Below are positions 5,110-30,896 of a DNA stretch of 31,205 nt, one piece after another. Under the pieces are notes generated by a model. It was not told the DNA's origin, ran no database searches, and saw only the letters and a list, made by a program, of their open reading frames with translations. The position numbers were made by a program, and so were the translations under genes. Source of the stretch: a virus; IMG/VR virus record IMGVR_UViG_3300030943_000122, positions 1 through 31,205 of that record; one strand, 5' to 3'. The stretch's first letter is position 1; the number at the start of each line of letters is the position of its first letter.

Positions 5110-6195
5110 CTATTTTACGGTTAGAATCGACTTGATTATACCTAAATTTCTGTTATGCTTTATGAAGTTAGGGAGCGTATCTCTATCACTCGACCTTCGG
5201 ATTTTCTCTTTGTTGTCTTTCATGTACTTATTAAATCCATCGGGTAGGTGGGTAACCTCATTCGCTGACTTAGAAGGAATATCTGCTAAGCCGGATAATA
5301 ACCGCTTTTGCTTACTGATAAATTCCTCTTGGGTTGTTAGTATTTCAAGAACGTGACACCTGCATTGAACATGCCACGAAACAAAGTGAAACGTCTTTGG
5401 ATATTTACCTTTCAGTGCATCGCAAATAGGACAGGCAAAAACATGATTGGAGCGAACCACTTCAAACCCGACAATGAAATCTAATTGCTGCCTTTGCAGA
5501 TGATCGCTTTCCCTGTATGCTTCATTGATTGTGTTCCGAGTTAGTCGCATTGCATTTTTGTACGAACTCCGATAACGTCCCGCTCCTGGGTGAAATGCTT
5601 TTGCAGGTTTTGAAAGTTTCAAATTTCCGTTCTTATCACGAACTCTTCGGAACAGTTCATCGGGATTGTTCAGGAAACCCCTCAATTCTCTGCTAAGGTC
5701 GGTTGCTGACATTCCACTACCTAACCCTAAATCTAGGCCCATCTCTAAATCGGTTTTGAATTGAGCCGATAAGTTCCAAACTCTATCCGACAAACCGAGT
5801 CCGTTGTACTTCTGTTTTTGAAAGGCGCTCAGTGCTTCGAGGTTCCTATTTCCATACTTTGCAATTTGCTCAGGTAGAAGTTTTGTTTTGCCGGCAATCG
5901 CTTTTACTAATTCAGCACTTTTTATACAGGCTTCGCTCCACTCTTCTAGTGTAGCATTGGTAATTACATTCGATACCATGCCGTAATGGGTCGCTATTAG
6001 CTTTTTTACTCTTGCGTTGGTACTTGGATAGTCCGCAAATGAAAACGGCTTAGAAAGGTCTACATTAGTTATTGAGGTAGCGATTTGAGCTGCTTCCTTT
6101 ATCGTGGCTAAATAAATCTGCTGAACTCGTTTTGCTGCTATCTCGGTACGGTTGAAATGCTCCGCTTCGAAATCAATCTTAATTATTTTTGGCAT
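5110..6195 (-). CDS. Head morphogenesis protein, phage Mu gpF / SPP1 gp7 type
   Basis: This 361-aa minor head protein helps assemble the capsid and travels with the portal. The family's core is clear in the second half: RLTRNTINEAYRESDHLQRQ, then SNHVFACPICDALKGKYP and WHVQCRCHVLEI, in which the Cys and His residues could bind a metal. The N-terminal half is helical and lacks motifs. The position downstream of terminase and portal fits. The protein ends shortly after the core and carries no obvious C-terminal toxin domain, unlike some polymorphic MuF proteins. Confidence 0.85.
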   Translation of the reverse strand: MPKIIKIDFEAEHFNRTEIAAKRVQQIYLATIKEAAQIATSITNVDLSKPFSFADYPSTNARVKKLIATHYGMVSNVITNATLEEWSEACIKSAELVKAIAGKTKLLPEQIAKYGNRNLEALSAFQKQKYNGLGLSDRVWNLSAQFKTDLEMGLDLGLGSGMSATDLSRELRGFLNNPDELFRRVRDKNGNLKLSKPAKAFHPGAGRYRSSYKNAMRLTRNTINEAYRESDHLQRQQLDFIVGFEVVRSNHVFACPICDALKGKYPKTFHFVSWHVQCRCHVLEILTTQEEFISKQKRLLSGLADIPSKSANEVTHLPDGFNKYMKDNKEKIRRSSDRDTLPNFIKHNRNLGIIKSILTVK

Positions 6196-10207: not shown

Positions 10208-10668
10208 TATTTAGCAGTTGCAGCTTTCATTAATTCTTCAAATGGGTTGCCGGAAACTTCAACTTCTTGTTTCTCTCTCCACTCTTCGGGTTTTCTATTC
10301 TTCATCCAAAATATACAGGCGGTCGTATCAGCAACGATATGCTTCTTAGTCTTACTCACTTCGGTGGTCGTACCTGTACCGTCTTTGTTCACAATAACTT
10401 TGGTAGTTGTTTCTTCAACTTCATAGCCTAAAGCTCTGTTATAAAGTGAAGATTCAACTTTTAAGTCAGCATCGTATTTGTTTATTCTCACCAACTTTTT
10501 AAACTCAGGGTAATCTCTTATAAGCCTTTTGAGTGTAGTAAGTCCACACCCAAGCCGTAACGCTAACCCTGCGTTGTCTGCTCCATTCCTACAATCAGAA
10601 GTAATCGTTTCTTCATGTCCTGCGACATACTTCTGATAAATATCTTCTTTCGGTCTTCCTGTTCTCAT
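10207..10668 (-). CDS. terS: Terminase small subunit
   Basis: This 153-aa protein recognises phage DNA for packaging. The N-terminal half holds a helix-turn-helix (LALRLGCGLTTLKRLIRDYP). The remainder has the family's typical pattern: VESSLYNRALGYEVEETTTK, then TTACIFWMKNRKPEEWREKQ. It overlaps the ParB-like gene by one base upstream and TerL by one base downstream. Confidence 0.88.
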   Translation of the reverse strand: MRTGRPKEDIYQKYVAGHEETITSDCRNGADNAGLALRLGCGLTTLKRLIRDYPEFKKLVRINKYDADLKVESSLYNRALGYEVEETTTKVIVNKDGTGTTTEVSKTKKHIVADTTACIFWMKNRKPEEWREKQEVEVSGNPFEELMKAATAK

Positions 10669-11447
10669 TAGTTTTCTTGTGCTTTAATAAGTTGTAGTTG
10701 CTCATTGCAAATGTCAATCATTCGACCAAATGCAACTGTATTACTTTTAATGTTGTAAGCCTTCTTAACCTCAGTCATTGTCTTAATGAACTCTTCAAAT
10801 GAACCTACAACGATATTGCAATTCTCACCAAGCTTTTGCGATTCAAGTTCAGCGAGGACACGCTTTACATCGTTGGTCTTATTCTCAATAAATAAGAACT
10901 TCATCTCTGTAAGTTCAATGTCAGCATCACCAATAGAAGCAATCTGCAGCTTTTCAATATCAACGAACTGTAAGCCGTTCAATCCTGAAAACTCTTTAGA
11001 TTCAATGGTTTTCATCTCTGCGTAAATATCTTGCAACATCTGTACGTCATCCTTACCAACCAAAGCATTATGAGAAAGCTGATAAGCAAGCTGTGTGTCC
11101 TTATCTACCTCGTCAATGTATAAGATTAAGATGTATTCGAGATGTGCCTTTATAGAAGCTTTGAGCCTGTGATTACCTGATAAAATCAAGTACTTTCCGT
11201 CTGCATTCTGTTTCATACCAAAAGGCAATTGAGATAGAAAGCCGTCATTCGATACATTGTCAACCAATTTGTCCAATGTACCTTTGTCCATGAAGTGAGC
11301 ATTTTTCTGTAGTGAAAGGCAATCACCTGTAGGACTGACATAAGCCAATTTGTAGGGAGCAATTAAAATGTTGATGTCAGTCAGCTTTTCCCTGATTTCG
11401 TCAACGTTCTTTTCGGTTACTTCTTTCTGTAATTCTTGTCCAGCCAT
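10668..11447 (-). CDS. ParB N-terminal-like nuclease/CTPase-fold protein
   Basis: This 259-aa protein has the ParB/sulfiredoxin-like fold marker GNHRLKA at residues 91-97 after YLILS, preceded by the typical 'choose neighbours' segment LDKLVDNVSNDGFLSQLPFG. Stand-alone ParB-like domains are frequent in phages beside terminase genes and beside DNA-modification enzymes. No partner ParA is present, so a role in plasmid-type partition is unlikely. Its start overlaps the upstream methyltransferase-like gene by 31 bases, which suggests joint function. Confidence 0.8.
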   Translation of the reverse strand: MAGQELQKEVTEKNVDEIREKLTDINILIAPYKLAYVSPTGDCLSLQKNAHFMDKGTLDKLVDNVSNDGFLSQLPFGMKQNADGKYLILSGNHRLKASIKAHLEYILILYIDEVDKDTQLAYQLSHNALVGKDDVQMLQDIYAEMKTIESKEFSGLNGLQFVDIEKLQIASIGDADIELTEMKFLFIENKTNDVKRVLAELESQKLGENCNIVVGSFEEFIKTMTEVKKAYNIKSNTVAFGRMIDICNEQLQLIKAQEN

Positions 11448-12727
11448 AATGAATAGATTTGTTTTAATGTTTGATTTGTAAATTTGCCAACGTACATCAG
11501 CTTTCCTTTATCTCTGCGCTCCAATTCGTAAACCCCTCGATACTTCATTGATATTGCGCTCTCAGTGTAGACAGTGGTCTTCAATCCTTCGTAGTAGTTT
11601 GCAATCTTTCTTGCAATAACCTTTCGTACTTCTGTGGATCGGGTCAACATGATAAGTAATTTGCTCAGCTTGCCTGTGTCAGTGTTTGCCACAAAATCAC
11701 TTTGCATGAAAATTAATTCCATAGTTGAAAGCATCTTGCTGAATGAAGTAAAACCGAAAGCCTTACCGTCTGCAAAGAATGCAAGACCCATATCACCGCC
11801 TGTCGTATAATTGACCTTGTTAGCCATGTAAAAAGCTTTGAAGTAGTTTATATCATTCACCGAACAAAGTCCTACTGTGATGACCGTACGCTTTGTAAAC
11901 TCGTAGTTTGCGGGTAATACGGTTAAGGTAGATTGAACCTGCTTTTTATCTCGTTGGAAATAGTACTTCTCTCCTGCAATGGAAGAGTACAAAAACAATG
12001 GTTGTTTACCGGCTCCCAAATTCACAACGCCCGATTCCCATTTCATAAGCTCCGGCCACTCTCTGTCTGAGTAAATAATGTTTTCGTCTGCTTCCAACAA
12101 CTCTTGAAAAATCAAGCTGCCTTCCTTCGGGTCAAACATTTTATATTCTGCTCTCTCGTAATTAAAGGCTTTCTCAACGTAGTCGAACATCTTCTCATAA
12201 CCTGCCTTGTATGTAGGCTGGAAGCTGATACCCACACCTTTGCCGTTTTTAGCTTTTAGGAAGTCAACGAAGTCGCAGAACTCAAAGCTCTTAATGTTAA
12301 AGTCAAACGCACCTTTCTCAAACTTTTCTATAGTCTTCGTATAGTATTGTTCTGATTGACACATCCATGAATCAAAGAACATTCTCTGATAGTCATTCTT
12401 CAACGGTGCATAATCAGACAATCTAATTGTGAACATTATCTGAATAAGTTTTTTATACTTTGAATCTTGCCAACTATCAAATAGCACTTTTAGCTCAGGA
12501 TTGATAACTTCTAGCTCCGTATCTGTTCCTAACATTACATCAGCAATCAATTTTGAATACAAACACACATCATTTGAATGCACATTGTACCCTAGCTTTG
12601 ACATAATCTTATCTACAGTGAAGTTTCCCGAACAACCAATAAAAACATCTTTCTTATTGTGTGCGGTGTCCTTCATTAAGTCCTGCAATAATATCTTTAC
12701 CTCCTGCGGAGTCGTTCCTTTAAACAT
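11417..12727 (-). CDS. Adenine methyltransferase-like protein fused to a GNAT/Mom-like domain
   Basis: This 436-aa protein appears to have two parts. The N-terminal half resembles D12-class DNA adenine methylases: VFIGCSGNF (29-35) as the AdoMet loop and HSNDV (50-54) as the next acidic motif. The expected DPPY is replaced by QPTY at 170-173 (ISFQPTYKAGYEKMF). The C-terminal 160 residues read like an acetyltransferase fold (LGMAFF-type strand GDMGLAFFADGKAFGFTSF, then LLIMLTRSTEVRKVIARKI and a late SAISMKYRGVYELERRDKG). Similar phage proteins are thought to modify DNA against restriction. Whether this one methylates, or adds a larger group as Mu Mom does, cannot be read from sequence. Confidence 0.6.
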   Translation of the reverse strand: MFKGTTPQEVKILLQDLMKDTAHNKKDVFIGCSGNFTVDKIMSKLGYNVHSNDVCLYSKLIADVMLGTDTELEVINPELKVLFDSWQDSKYKKLIQIMFTIRLSDYAPLKNDYQRMFFDSWMCQSEQYYTKTIEKFEKGAFDFNIKSFEFCDFVDFLKAKNGKGVGISFQPTYKAGYEKMFDYVEKAFNYERAEYKMFDPKEGSLIFQELLEADENIIYSDREWPELMKWESGVVNLGAGKQPLFLYSSIAGEKYYFQRDKKQVQSTLTVLPANYEFTKRTVITVGLCSVNDINYFKAFYMANKVNYTTGGDMGLAFFADGKAFGFTSFSKMLSTMELIFMQSDFVANTDTGKLSKLLIMLTRSTEVRKVIARKIANYYEGLKTTVYTESAISMKYRGVYELERRDKGKLMYVGKFTNQTLKQIYSLWLDKNYRKK

Positions 12728-12756
12728 ATCCTTTAATTTGCGAATTACACTTTACG

Positions 12757-12798
12757 AAAAAAAGGACAGCACTGTTTGAAATAGTCCTATCCTTTTTT
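12757..12798 (-). terminator. Intrinsic terminator after the tRNA-like gene, possibly bidirectional
   Basis: AAAAAAGGA at 12758-12766 pairs with TCCTTTTTT at 12790-12798. On the minus strand the stem is followed by a T run. A smaller inner pairing (GGAC/GTCC) is an alternative. It lies between the tRNA-like gene and the methyltransferase-like gene, at the head of the packaging operon, and the same A/T tracts would work on the plus strand. Confidence 0.65.
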
Positions 12799-12815
12799 AA
12801 TTGTTCTCATTTTTG

Positions 12816-12884
12816 AGCGGGGTGTGGAATTGAACCACTCATTCACGTTGGGAACGTAACATGCTACCGTAACACTTACCCCGC
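12816..12884 (-). tRNA. tRNA-Gly-like gene, anticodon CCC
   Basis: Read on the minus strand, GCGGGGT pairs with ACCCCGC as acceptor stem. The D arm is GTGT/GCAT around TACGGTA. The anticodon stem TTACG/CGTGA encloses the loop TTCCCAA with conserved T33 and anticodon CCC. The T loop is TTCAATT on a GTGG/CCAC stem. The molecule is 69 bases, one pair short in the T stem, and has A instead of T at position 8. CCA is not encoded. The body resembles bacterial tRNA-Gly(CCC). It follows the DUF488 gene on the same strand. Confidence 0.75.
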
Positions 12885-12889
12885 AGGTA

Positions 12890-13285
12890 CTATACAAACA
12901 TTGCTGTCTGTGTGTTTATTAAAACCGGAACTTCCATTTTGCCTAACTCCAAAACTTCAATTCCCAATTCTTTAGTAAGCCATAGTGCAACTAAGCTTCT
13001 ATGACAGAAATCACCTTCTTTCTCATGGCATAACAAAACAATGTTTTTACCTTTTGAAGCAGCGATTAAATCAGCATACACTTTTTGAGCAGATAGCCTT
13101 TCCAATCCCTTATTAAATTTTTGTGTGTAGCTAGGTTCTGCATCATTCATATAACCCCATTCAGGATTTAGAACTGCGTATGTGTAGCCATTGAAATACT
13201 TTGCACTTAATGCGATTGAGATAGGGAAAAACCCTTTAGCTTGATATTTCTTTACATTCGAAAAATTACCTGTAGCGATTTGCAT
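12890..13285 (-). CDS. DUF488-type protein
   Basis: This 131-aa protein has the DUF488 hallmark LLCHEKEGDFCHRSLVALWL, with Cys86, Cys94, His95 and Arg96. The family is widespread in bacteria and phages; a nucleotide- or nucleic-acid-related role has been proposed but not established. It is the first gene downstream of operator-promoter O3 and a second promoter-like element at 13311-13318. The tRNA-like gene begins 6 bases after its stop region. Confidence 0.75.
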   Translation of the reverse strand: MQIATGNFSNVKKYQAKGFFPISIALSAKYFNGYTYAVLNPEWGYMNDAEPSYTQKFNKGLERLSAQKVYADLIAASKGKNIVLLCHEKEGDFCHRSLVALWLTKELGIEVLELGKMEVPVLINTQTAMFV

Positions 13286-13470: not shown

Positions 13471-13504
13471 TAAAAGTACACATTCTGTTTGTAATACAAT
13501 CACT
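13471..13504 (-). promoter_or_regulatory. Operator-promoter O3 upstream of DUF488/tRNA
   Basis: The operator core at 13484-13504 has an intact CAATCACT arm and TAATA centre, but the other arm is TCTGTTTG instead of AGTGATTG. The -33 TTG (13499-13497) comes from the intact arm. The -7 is TACTTTTA (13478-13471) after an 18-base spacer. The site touches the stop codon of the resolvase gene at 13500. The leader to 13285 is about 180 bases and holds no convincing gene. Confidence 0.6.
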
Positions 13505-14036
13505 TTTTGCCGAAAACTTTCATTTTTATTGCATAATTGGCATAATTCCACGAAATAAGTGCAGCATCTCGACAGTCTTGATTAGTGCGCTCTTTTATTC
13601 CTGTGAAATATGAAAGCTCAGCATGAGTGATTTTGCCATCAGGACCCGCCCAAATCTTTTTAAGTGGGAGTTGTTCGCGAACTTCAATTCCGTAATGGTT
13701 ACACATTTCAATAATCTTTCGACCTGTTTCATGGTTGGCTCCTGTCTTCCTTGAAATAGCTTCGTTTACATTTCCTGAGTTGGTAACATAAGCCCCTGTC
13801 TTTCCATCCTTGTAACCTTTGTGCCAATTGGATTTATTAAGCCAACCCGCTTCAACTATTACAATCAGTGTTTTCTCGTTTTGGGAACAACTCTTTTTAA
13901 GCCCTTGTAAGCTCTCCAATAACTTAGGAAATGCCATTGACTGCAAAACAAGTCTTCTATCCTCTGTGTAGAGCCATGCAACACCGCTTGCTATTGTATC
14001 GGGGTCTATTCCAATAATCAAATCTTCCTTTGTCAT
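13500..14036 (-). CDS. RuvC-like Holliday junction resolvase
   Basis: This 178-aa protein has the RNase H-fold nuclease acids in RuvC order: GIDPD near residue 10, VEAG near 62 and NQDCRDAAL near 155. Such phage enzymes resolve four-way junctions made during recombination-dependent replication and clear branches before packaging. It lies two bases after the SSB stop and closes the replication operon. Its own stop touches operator O3. Confidence 0.8.
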   Translation of the reverse strand: MTKEDLIIGIDPDTIASGVAWLYTEDRRLVLQSMAFPKLLESLQGLKKSCSQNEKTLIVIVEAGWLNKSNWHKGYKDGKTGAYVTNSGNVNEAISRKTGANHETGRKIIEMCNHYGIEVREQLPLKKIWAGPDGKITHAELSYFTGIKERTNQDCRDAALISWNYANYAIKMKVFGKK

Positions 14037-14038
14037 GG

Positions 14039-14458
14039 TTAAAACGGTAAGTCGCTTCCTTCTCCTGCAGGGGGAACGGGTGGGGGTGTAGGTGAGCCAA
14101 TCGGATTTGGTTCAGCCTTTAGCTCTGCCGGCACAGAATTTTCAGCTTTTGGACTGAGTAGTTCTAAATACGAAACATTGCAATTCAATCCACATTCTCG
14201 CTGTCCGGCTTTCTCAAACATCTTTTTAGAAAGTGCACCTTCAACAAAAACTTTCGTTCCTTTCTTCATGTATTGGACAAGTCCGCTACCCTCTTTTACT
14301 TTCTTCAAGCAGGAAATCCACTCAGTCGTTTCGTGCTTTACTCCTTGACCGTCTGTGTAGCTCTCTGTATTTGCAACTGAGAACGCAATGAAGTGCTGAC
14401 CGTTCCATTCTTTGACTGTAGCATCCTGACCTATATGGCCTGTAACTGTTAATTTCAT
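14039..14458 (-). CDS. ssb: Single-stranded DNA-binding protein
   Basis: This 139-aa protein has an OB fold opening MKLTVTGHIGQDATVKEW, followed by FIAFSVANTES and TEWISCL. It then has KGTKVFVEGALS, the standard order of bacterial-type SSB. A Pro-rich linker leads to the acidic tip ending DLPF, which binds partner proteins. It protects single strands in replication and RecT recombination. It is placed between the homing endonuclease gene and the resolvase gene. Confidence 0.9.
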   Translation of the reverse strand: MKLTVTGHIGQDATVKEWNGQHFIAFSVANTESYTDGQGVKHETTEWISCLKKVKEGSGLVQYMKKGTKVFVEGALSKKMFEKAGQRECGLNCNVSYLELLSPKAENSVPAELKAEPNPIGSPTPPPVPPAGEGSDLPF

Positions 14459-14488: not shown

Positions 14489-15214
14489 CTATAATTTCCA
14501 ATTTTTATATTCGTTAGCTGCATCAATTTCATTTACAAACAACCCAAGGTTGTACTTAACTCCCTTGAAACATTTTTGCGCTCTCCATTTTCCTACGTTT
14601 GAGCACCAACTAACACCCTTAAATTCAGATGTTTTGTTTTGATTTATTTTAAGGTTTAAATACCATTCTTCAAAAGTCAAATCTTCAATTTTATTCAAGG
14701 CTAATTTATATATCTCAGACGCTTCTATTTCATCTTTATAATATCCAAGATGATAGGGGGTGCATCCAACAGTAATACATGAAACCCACTTGCTACTCTT
14801 TGATACCCACGTTACTCCTGTATAAATAGAACTCGTTTTTTTATTCATAAATGCTTCCGATATATTTTTTCTGCTTGAAACAATTTCAAAGTTAGAAGCA
14901 TAATTGTTTTGTTTGTTTTCATCCTTATGGTTTGGAACTAAATCATGTCCGCAAGGAATAAATCCATGAAAAGCAATACACACAAGAACATGAATATCGT
15001 ATCTTTTGCTTATCCCTAGTTTCGCTAAATTGAAACATAAATACTCACGACCTCTATCTGTTGGTTTCAAAATTCTCTCTTTCACAGTTCTAAATCCATC
15101 CCATTTTACGACTTTACGTTCAAGGCTTTTACCTCTTCCAAAACTACTTATTTGATAATACCCCTCAAATTCAGGTAGGTCTTTCCAAACTTCAACTTCT
15201 TCTATATCTTCCAT
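14489..15214 (-). CDS. NUMOD4-HNH-AP2-AP2 homing endonuclease
   Basis: I place the start at the ATG at 15214 (MEDIEEVEVW, 241 aa) rather than the TTG four codons earlier. Domains in order are a NUMOD4 DNA-binding motif (EVWKDLPEFEGYYQISSFGR) and an HNH nuclease region with VPNHKDENKQNNYASNFEIV. Two AP2 DNA-binding domains follow (TGVTWVSKSSKWVSCITVG and FKGVSWCSNVGKWRAQKCF). These are free-standing mobile nucleases that insert in phage genomes. It interrupts the run of small replication genes and stands 31 bases before ssb, with no intron or intein signature around it. Confidence 0.88.
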   Translation of the reverse strand: MEDIEEVEVWKDLPEFEGYYQISSFGRGKSLERKVVKWDGFRTVKERILKPTDRGREYLCFNLAKLGISKRYDIHVLVCIAFHGFIPCGHDLVPNHKDENKQNNYASNFEIVSSRKNISEAFMNKKTSSIYTGVTWVSKSSKWVSCITVGCTPYHLGYYKDEIEASEIYKLALNKIEDLTFEEWYLNLKINQNKTSEFKGVSWCSNVGKWRAQKCFKGVKYNLGLFVNEIDAANEYKNWKL

Positions 15215-15218
15215 AATA

Positions 15219-15383
15219 TTAATCAATAAATCCTTTTTGTTTCAAGTTCCGAGGGTTGCACATCATTTTGGACCCATCATCTAAGTAGACACAAATCTTT
15301 CCATTTACTAAGCTGTCAGAGTTCTTTGTTTGACCTGTTAGCCCTGTAGCCGTTGTTACTTTAAATCCACTGTTTGCGCTCAT
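15219..15383 (-). CDS. Small hypothetical protein (54 aa)
   Basis: The ATG at 15383 overlaps the TGA of the gene ending at 15380 as ATGA. Fifty-four codons run to TAA at 15219, just before the homing endonuclease start. The protein opens MSANSGFKVTTATGLTGQTK and continues NGKICVYLDDGSKMMC, a likely small beta structure. Tight coupling and normal codon use mark it as real. Function unknown. Confidence 0.75.
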   Translation of the reverse strand: MSANSGFKVTTATGLTGQTKNSDSLVNGKICVYLDDGSKMMCNPRNLKQKGFID

Positions 15384-29292: not shown

Positions 29293-29590
29293 TCCTGAAA
29301 GCATCGCTATCATCAACCGCTTTTACGAAGCGATTGATGTACTTATCTCAGAACGACAATTAAGAGGGGTAAAAACATTTACTGATAAATACAATATCAA
29401 TCGTTGGAATTTAAACACTGTAAGAAAAAACCCTGAGTCAGACATGTTCCAACTCGTTTGGGTTTCTTATTTAATAATGGACTTCGGTGTTTCTGCAGAA
29501 TGGATCATGACAGGGAAAGGGTGGATGTTTGGAGTTGAAAGCCCACAGTTTGCAATCTTGAAACATAAAAATGTTACAAAAGCAAATTGA
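29285..29590 (+). CDS. HTH-like DNA-binding protein similar to Bacteroidetes phage repressor N-termini
   Basis: This 101-aa protein has the pattern RFYEAIDVLISERQLRGVKT, then FTDKYNINRWNLNTVRKNPE and GVSAEWIMTGKGWMF. The same pattern forms the N-terminal domain of many Bacteroidetes phage repressors, ending in a 'GVSxxWxxxGxGxMF' segment. Here no peptidase domain follows. It may act with the XRE protein as a second regulator. It converges with the integrase gene, and the two stops overlap by 17 bases. Confidence 0.65.
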   Translation: MNNPESIAIINRFYEAIDVLISERQLRGVKTFTDKYNINRWNLNTVRKNPESDMFQLVWVSYLIMDFGVSAEWIMTGKGWMFGVESPQFAILKHKNVTKAN

Positions 29591-30896
29591 CTAAATCAGT
29601 TTTCATCTCTTCGTCAATTTCTCTATATCGTGCAAAAGATTTACTTCCTTCCTTATGGCCTGTCAAAGACCCGACTAAATTTTGGTCCTTCACTTGTTTG
29701 TAAAGATTTCCAACAAAACATCTTCTCGCCAGGTGAGAGGATGCAATTAAGTTTAACGGTTGTTTTTCCTCTTCCCTTGTGGTAGGATTGACAACCGTTA
29801 CCATTCTAGTAAGTTTAGCAAAGGTGAACATTTCTTTTATTGCCAAATTATACTTCTGCTCTGAAATGAACGGCATTAGCGATTCTCTTTCATCGTCCCT
29901 ATACCGGTCTATAATTTCCAAAGCAATTGAGTTCAGCGGGACCCGAACCGTGATAAGGCTACCTTCTTTTGTTTTCCTAGCGATGTACTCGATTGCTCCA
30001 TTTATAATACTTGACTTCTTCATTTTGTAGTAGTCACCTACACGGCAACCAATCAAACAATGCAGAACGAATATATCTCTCTGTACTGCTAACTTCGGCA
30101 ATTTTGCCATATTCTTTGCATACAACTGATTGCGTTCTTTTATGTCGATGTAGTATGGTGTTCCGTAAACCGATTCTTCGATAGCATACTTTTTAAATGG
30201 GCTTACACTTATCTTTTCATTTTCAACACACCAAAGGAAAAACGTTCTAATTTTTACGAACATATCATTTATTGTATTCTGTCCACGAGGGGACGGCAGC
30301 CGACTCTCTTTTACAGTAACCCAAATGTCAGGGAACTTTTTATAAATTTCATCTTCAATTCTGAAAAACTTATCAATATCAGAAAGTACTTTTTCGTCAA
30401 CCTCTTTCAACTTTAGCGTATAAGCAGGATTCTCTTTTTGTTTGTACAGCTCATACCTTTGGAGTGACCGAAATGATACCTTTATAGAACGGAGCCGTCC
30501 GACAGACAATTTTCTATTATCAATAAACTCAGAGAATGTTTCAAAAAATGTAGGCTCCACTGCAACAACTTTGTATTTTTCGGGAAAGTGAAATGTATCA
30601 ACACAAGTTTCTAGCCATTCCTTTGAAATGATTTTTTTATCCGTTTTTTCACATTCAGATAAAACATGTTTTTTCAACTCGCTTAATTTTGTATTTAATG
30701 CAATCAAAAGCGTTCGCTCCTCAGTTTCAATTTTTGGGATAGAAACTTCATTCTTTTTAGTCCAACGATTGACAGATACAAACAGTCCGGATTTAATTCT
30801 ATATCTTTGCGTTTGGCTTACTGAAAAACGCATTAATATCTCAGACCGATTTAGGGTGTCGAATTTTTCGGATAAACTCAAAGTTATTGTTGCCAT
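29574..30896 (-). CDS. int: Tyrosine recombinase (phage integrase)
   Basis: This 440-aa protein has the complete catalytic set: Arg285 (IGCRVGD), Lys308/310 (ARKTKEGS), His388 and Arg391 (SSHLARRCF), His414 (LTGHKEG) and Tyr424 (FARYREID). The N-terminal arm-binding domain (KFDTLNRSEILMRFSVSQTQ) and SAM-like core-binding domain (residues 110-230) are present. This is the Bacteroidetes mobile-element type. It catalyses integration and excision at att. It sits at the right end, reading into the phage, so the att site should lie between it and 31136. Confidence 0.93.
   Translation of the reverse strand: MATITLSLSEKFDTLNRSEILMRFSVSQTQRYRIKSGLFVSVNRWTKKNEVSIPKIETEERTLLIALNTKLSELKKHVLSECEKTDKKIISKEWLETCVDTFHFPEKYKVVAVEPTFFETFSEFIDNRKLSVGRLRSIKVSFRSLQRYELYKQKENPAYTLKLKEVDEKVLSDIDKFFRIEDEIYKKFPDIWVTVKESRLPSPRGQNTINDMFVKIRTFFLWCVENEKISVSPFKKYAIEESVYGTPYYIDIKERNQLYAKNMAKLPKLAVQRDIFVLHCLIGCRVGDYYKMKKSSIINGAIEYIARKTKEGSLITVRVPLNSIALEIIDRYRDDERESLMPFISEQKYNLAIKEMFTFAKLTRMVTVVNPTTREEEKQPLNLIASSHLARRCFVGNLYKQVKDQNLVGSLTGHKEGSKSFARYREIDEEMKTDLVNLLL

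Follow-up and report, generated by a model that had tools for sequence, protein, structure and literature searches.

Background

Mu Mom is a GNAT-fold enzyme that produces N6-carbamoylmethyl-adenine. To our knowledge, the GNAT-fold aminoacyl-tRNA transferases described to date have proteins and cell-wall peptides as their acceptors, and no known DNA modification uses an aminoacyl-tRNA. The literature searched, with most subscription papers and all preprints outside its scope, contains no earlier report of tRNA-dependent DNA modification or of a linked tRNA. A review gives the co-substrate of Mom as an acyl-CoA such as glycyl-CoA, with no proof evident (PMC7824862). In S. aureus, a cell-wall tRNA-Gly evades EF-Tu and supplies FemXAB (PMC4052509). 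The domain library entries PF22555 (DAM-like-phage1) and PF22559 (GNAT-phage-like), which occur fused in phrog_7858, give domain names only, without a tRNA link. The locus presented here encodes a fusion of this type (DAM-GNAT) beside a tRNA-Gly gene. Comparison with related loci suggests that phages carrying a DAM-GNAT enzyme or Mom together with such a tRNA add a tRNA-derived amino acid to their own DNA.

Organization of the locus

The window, which is the whole stretch of viral DNA analysed, is 31,205 nucleotides long. An integrase gene at 29574-30896 suggests that the phage is temperate. On the minus strand, the order of transcription is an SSB gene (14039-14458), a Holliday-junction-resolvase-like gene (13500-14036), a DUF488-N3a gene (12890-13285), a tRNA-Gly(CCC)-like gene (12815-12885), a terminator-like hairpin with a U run (12759-12797; fold z -2.9 for 12728-12812), the 436-aa fusion enzyme gene (11417-12727) and a 259-aa ParB-like gene (10668-11447). 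Genes for both terminase subunits (small and large), the portal and the head are found 3' of the ParB-like gene. The DUF488-N3a gene fits its family model (PF22751, 1.1e-9) and its 3' end is 4 bp before the tRNA.

Homologs of the enzyme were gathered from viral and genomic contigs, giving 195 distinct loci in one count and 197, all having sufficient 5' sequence, in another; Bacteroidaceae, Prevotella and Chlorobiaceae are among the sources of the relatives on bacterial contigs. The ParB-like partner, which is weak in Pfam (PF02195, 1.7e-3) and matches phrog_7405 (1.9e-59), overlaps the enzyme gene by 31 bp in the window ORFs. This overlap had been pointed out in the original prediction, and the coupling recurs, with a ParB-like gene immediately 3' of the enzyme gene in 183 of 192 loci, a frequency that far exceeds what chance would give. 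A DUF488 motif is present 5' of the enzyme gene in 96 out of 175 loci.

Domains and predicted folds of the fusion enzyme

Both domains are found in the window protein in the same order as in phrog_7858, to which its full length matches (3e-116), and both score above the curated Pfam cut-offs of 27, at 136.6 bits for PF22555 and 87.8 bits for PF22559. The Dam-fold half comprises residues 2-263 (11939-12724, minus strand; PF22555, 1.3e-39) and the GNAT-fold half residues 285-432 (11432-11875, minus strand; PF22559, 9e-25). An AF2 model built on an alignment of 118 relatives has a pLDDT of 94.2 and a pTM of 0.82. Residues 1-251 of this model compare with E. coli Dam (2g1p) at Z 15.3 and with T4 Dam at Z 13.9, and residues 279-416 compare with the GNAT 1y9k at Z 10.8; Foldseek also returned GNAT matches, at E of about 4e-4. 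The original prediction of a D12-type methylase-like half joined to an acetyltransferase-like half is therefore confirmed by the domain families, and the structure prediction that it proposed as a check gives folds matching both a Dam methyltransferase and GNAT. No match for the enzyme was found in NCBIfam, PADLOC gave weak matches only, and the family profile, when searched against PDB sequences, produced matches at chance level only.

Active-site motifs

The window protein shares with D12-class Dam of E. coli and T4 the fold, motif I and the ND segment, and across the family the Dam half has conserved motif I (CSGNF) and NDV sequences. It is unlike Dam in the attached GNAT half and in motif IV, where [DN]PP[YF] is absent and F169-Q-P-T-Y173 (12209-12223, minus strand) is present instead. 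At the D/N position, 79 of the 118 aligned relatives have F, 21 have Y and 11 have N, and the next position is P in 83, L in 22, A in 8 and Q in 1, this last being the window phage. P171 is conserved in 117 of the 118. The change from DPPY to QPTY had been correctly seen beforehand, but the stress laid on the Q was misplaced, as close relatives carry P, A or L there. The larger change is loss of the D/N, which is a trait of the family and not private to the window phage, since F or Y replaces it in 100 of 118 relatives. The Faecalibacterium-phage clade, which is associated with tRNA-Lys, retains N in this motif (NPPTY).

With motif I and the NDV segment conserved, SAM binding is possible, and the N kept in the tRNA-Lys clade would also suit an active N6-adenine methyltransferase to which the GNAT half is an accessory. 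This is nevertheless highly improbable, given that the catalytic D/N is replaced in those 100 relatives and that the invariant residues are mostly in the GNAT half. These are T384, R397 and G398, invariant in the family alignments. Motif A of the GNAT half is [KR]RL[SA]KL[VIL] across the family, with zero glycines, and the CoA-pyrophosphate motif [QR]xxGx[GA] is absent. Because the motif A glycines have been lost while these three residues are invariant, the conserved core of the enzyme is located in the GNAT half, and it does not look fitted out for acyl-CoA.

A tRNA linked to the enzyme gene

The tRNA-Gly gene of the window, overlooked in the original prediction, stands 87 bp 5' of the enzyme gene. 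It was identified by ARAGORN, cloverleaf parse, fold and the covariance model R1 described below. The cloverleaf parse shows that G1:C72, C2:G71, G3:C70, U73 and C35C36 are retained, that U8 and an encoded CCA are lacking, and that the T stem is short. The fold has an MFE of -24.8 kcal/mol (z -2.4). Model R1 scores 57.9 bits on a locus identical to that of the window, which is part of its training set. A tRNA-Gly is again present in Mycobacterium phage Argie, where the enzyme is just 23.6% identical to that of the window, and a tRNA-Lys in Faecalibacterium phage FP_Brigit, with an enzyme 19.5% identical.

Across the DAM-GNAT loci, which total 1.85 Mb, ARAGORN identified 72 tRNAs, 62 of which are on the same strand and no more than 800 bp 5' of the enzyme gene (42 Gly, 14 Lys and 1 Pro). 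With a second, independent scanner, 9 out of 11 upstream matches had a Gly anticodon, against 0 out of 13 in four control regions. Rfam RF00005 placed tRNAs above its cut-off in only 6 of 50 records. Standard tRNA tools miss many cases and a dedicated covariance model, R1, was therefore built from 42 linked tRNAs. In the training alignment 95% of cells are paired, against 63% when shuffled, with a cloverleaf covariation of 0.824 against 0.192. At E up to 0.02 the model has 99 matches, of which 90 are linked to the gene, in 88 loci. The 88 same-strand matches are concentrated in a region that makes up 13% of the space searched (P of about 1e-64), a figure to be read in light of linkage windows set after inspection of the data, covariance-model E-values that are rough, and many loci that are fragments.

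A linked tRNA is present in 86 of the 177 loci having at least 900 bp upstream; it is nearly always Gly, with Lys in one clade. A few of the loci without one carry such a tRNA elsewhere in the record. On a FastTree topology, tRNA presence changes at least 34 times, a count that missed detections inflate, and the isotype changes only 3 times. The number of presence changes indicates that the tRNA is a helper, not strictly required, and recurrent gain and loss fits a helper that supplements the host's charged tRNA.

At two loci of the tRNA-Lys clade the tRNA in that place is called as Pro (L108:3809-3884, tgg, and L315:3844-3918, agg), where the amino acid may have switched. At L240:2488-2558 and L289:3750-3820 the tRNA-Gly adjoins the enzyme gene on the opposite strand, as is also the case in Microbacterium phage Antuna (L350:3654-3728).

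Mom homologs

The Mom family (PF25680) resembles the window protein in its GNAT fold, in sometimes being encoded beside a ParB-like gene (Antuna, StevieBAY) and, in many cases, in a linked tRNA-Gly; it has no Dam-like half, unlike the window protein. In Antuna the ParB-like gene, mom and an annotated tRNA-Gly are consecutive. A sample of 118 Mom loci, 84 of them non-Mu, was chosen for resemblance to the Mom of Antuna. In 590 kb of these 118 loci ARAGORN found 15 tRNAs; each is no more than 800 bp from mom, and 13 of them are Gly. The covariance model detected a tRNA-Gly-like cloverleaf in 48 of the 84 non-Mu loci, a proportion that applies to a sample chosen by likeness to Antuna. By the same model, none was detected in the other 36 non-Mu loci or near Mu-type mom genes. 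Of the Mom-locus matches, 29 are outside the training set, and in these U73, G1:C72 and C2:G71 are all present in 29 of 29 and an encoded CCA in 23. Their covariation is 0.674, against 0.143 when shuffled.

Nearly all of the Mom-locus cloverleaves are at, or overlap, the 3' end of mom, the overlap often being with its final 90-120 bases. At L351:3541-3611, L364:3569-3641, L412:1713-1785 and others, the tRNA-Gly-like sequence overlaps the last 20-120 bases of the mom frame, and a single segment therefore seems to specify a tRNA as well as part of the protein.

The GNAT half had been predicted to resemble the Mom group. Its sequence kinship is weak: hhalign aligned it to the Mom profile over 54 columns with a probability of 44.5 and E of 2.3e-4, and the window protein has no PF25680 match at E up to 0.1, where Mu Mom scores 2e-75. 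The link to Mom is instead through the dedicated tRNA-Gly that the two share.

A third architecture

A protein of 694-716 aa that occurs in Prevotella and further Bacteroidales combines Amidoligase_2, DAM-like-phage2 (PF22556) and the same GNAT-phage-like domain. One or two tRNA-Gly genes are upstream in all 6 of the 6 loci examined (L309-L314). One of these islands (L313:520-5859) contains, in order, DUF488-N3a, two tRNA-Gly genes, an octopine-dehydrogenase-like gene, the amidoligase-DAM-GNAT gene, a ParB-like gene and an ATP-grasp gene. The substrates of opine dehydrogenases, amidoligases and ATP-grasp ligases are amino-acid groups, and these genes would therefore suit a base that bears an amino acid.

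Identity and elongator features of the linked tRNAs

G1:C72, C2:G71, U73 and C35C36 are the bases read by bacterial glycyl-tRNA synthetase. Among tRNAs selected as Gly-like by G1C2 and U73, a selection that besides the Lys and Pro tRNAs lost one badly parsed tRNA, the first three features are present in 58 of 58 distinct sequences and C35C36 in 55 of 58. The elongator features scored were U8, G18G19, U33, G53 and the T-loop TTC. All five are present in 8 of the 47 DAM-GNAT-linked and in none of the 11 Mom-linked Gly tRNAs, compared with 46 of 58 in an identically parsed set of ordinary tRNAs taken from four bacterial genomes. Across the family, identity is kept and elongator elements are lost, and the window tRNA likewise keeps the identity bases and is without U8. 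Some linked tRNAs appear normal for translation. The non-proteinogenic tRNA-Gly that serves the S. aureus amino-acid transferases FemXAB/MurMN is similar in being dedicated and in having kept its identity while losing G18G19 and the T arm (PMC4052509). There the acceptor is a cell-wall peptide, whereas the phage acceptor would be DNA.

tRNAs are frequent in phages, and those described here could be ordinary translation tRNAs, spares against tRNA cleavage or remnants of integration that are adjacent by inheritance, with the enzyme using an acyl-CoA such as the glycyl-CoA stated for Mom in the review (PMC7824862). Such an explanation is improbable. Other tRNAs are scarce in these records, a single isotype recurs beside three architectures, elongator features are missing in many, and GGG is little used in the window, where it accounts for 13% of Gly codons. 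The window tRNA is also mid-operon and far from the integrase gene, which argues against an integration remnant and on which basis the tRNA was rejected as an attachment site.

Some GNAT toxins prefer Gly-tRNA. Several acetylate aminoacyl-tRNAs (PMC9177977), and the GNAT half might similarly act on charged tRNA in the manner of TacT or AtaT, with the linked tRNA as a resistant decoy or spare. We regard this too as quite unlikely, because motif A is devoid of the glycines that bind CoA, because tRNAs without U8, U33 or G18G19 are poor spares for translation, and because the Dam half, the ParB-like partner and the link to Mom are left unexplained.

Proposed function

The fusion enzyme is probably an aminoacyl-tRNA-dependent DNA base modifier, in which the GNAT half moves glycine from the charged phage tRNA to a base held by the Dam half. 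The host glycyl-tRNA synthetase would charge the phage tRNA, which would stay outside translation because its elongation features have been lost. The Dam-like half would bind DNA and flip a base, most likely adenine given the precedents of Dam and Mom. The GNAT half, being without CoA-binding glycines, would then move the glycyl group from Gly-tRNA to the exocyclic amine. The guess in the original prediction that the methylase-like domain is kept for base recognition may be counted as supported, with the Dam half used for recognition or flipping and the other half for a new reaction. The ParB-like and DUF488 proteins may have roles in site handling and further tailoring, although these are guesses, and the likely benefit to the phage would be escape from restriction.

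The expected product, N6-glycyl-A (Ade-NH-CO-CH2-NH2), would be an isomer of the N6-carbamoylmethyl-A of Mom (Ade-NH-CH2-CO-NH2), with equal mass (+57 Da). A Smiles-type shift via a five-membered ring at C6 could interconvert the two, and a Gly-tRNA donor would therefore fit the product of Mom as well. In the Faecalibacterium-phage clade, lysine would be expected as the attached group, since the linked tRNA is Lys. Loci without a linked tRNA, which are about half of the DAM-GNAT loci, 36 of the 84 non-Mu Mom loci and Mu, would use host Gly-tRNA or a tRNA encoded elsewhere.

Transfer from the aminoacyl-tRNA could instead be to a target other than DNA, which might be a protein of the host or the phage, a peptide, or the ParB-like partner; FemXAB, acting on the cell-wall peptide, is a precedent (PMC4052509). 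This is unlikely, since the other half of the enzyme has the Dam fold, its partner is ParB-like, and this tRNA is also linked to homologs of Mom, a family in which the prototype from Mu modifies DNA.

Transfer to a DNA base is the reading adopted here. There is a somewhat better than even chance that these loci represent a class of hypermodification in which the donor is a dedicated, translation-defective phage aminoacyl-tRNA, that Mu Mom works likewise via host Gly-tRNA, and that in other clades lysine is attached or the glycine is elaborated further, as suggested by the genes of Prevotella elements in which tRNA-Gly pairs have amidoligase, opine-dehydrogenase-like and ATP-grasp neighbours. 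If this is true, the long-missing donor of Mom would be named and its co-substrate question settled, and genome protection would be tied to the translation apparatus. It would also explain the missing elongator features in some phage tRNAs, and the anticodon of the adjacent tRNA would predict the mass added to the base, +57 Da with Gly and +128 Da with Lys. Cultured phages suited to testing this are Northamptonvirus, Clawzvirus, Microbacterium phage Antuna and Faecalibacterium phage FP_Brigit. Those annotating genomes gain a type of tRNA that is frequently missed by ARAGORN and Rfam.

Other features of the loci

About 180-260 bp 5' of the enzyme gene at L060 there are three hairpins closed by an eight-base-pair helix, which is cloverleaf-like and without a Gly anticodon. 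The Streptomyces-type loci (L078-L085) have a conserved element, GATAGGTGACATGAT..CAAGG, about 170 bp 5' of the enzyme gene. It has a hairpin and a long flanking helix, and it was rejected as a tRNA for lack of fit. The 48-kb phage record of L010 has a single tRNA (L014:1501-1577) with an eight-base anticodon loop (ctaa). In the window, a gene resembling NUMOD4/HNH/AP2 homing endonucleases (14489-15226) lies within the replication gene block, and the head-morphogenesis gene at 5110-6195 has one PHROG match labelled as a Bxa ADP-ribosyl transferase.
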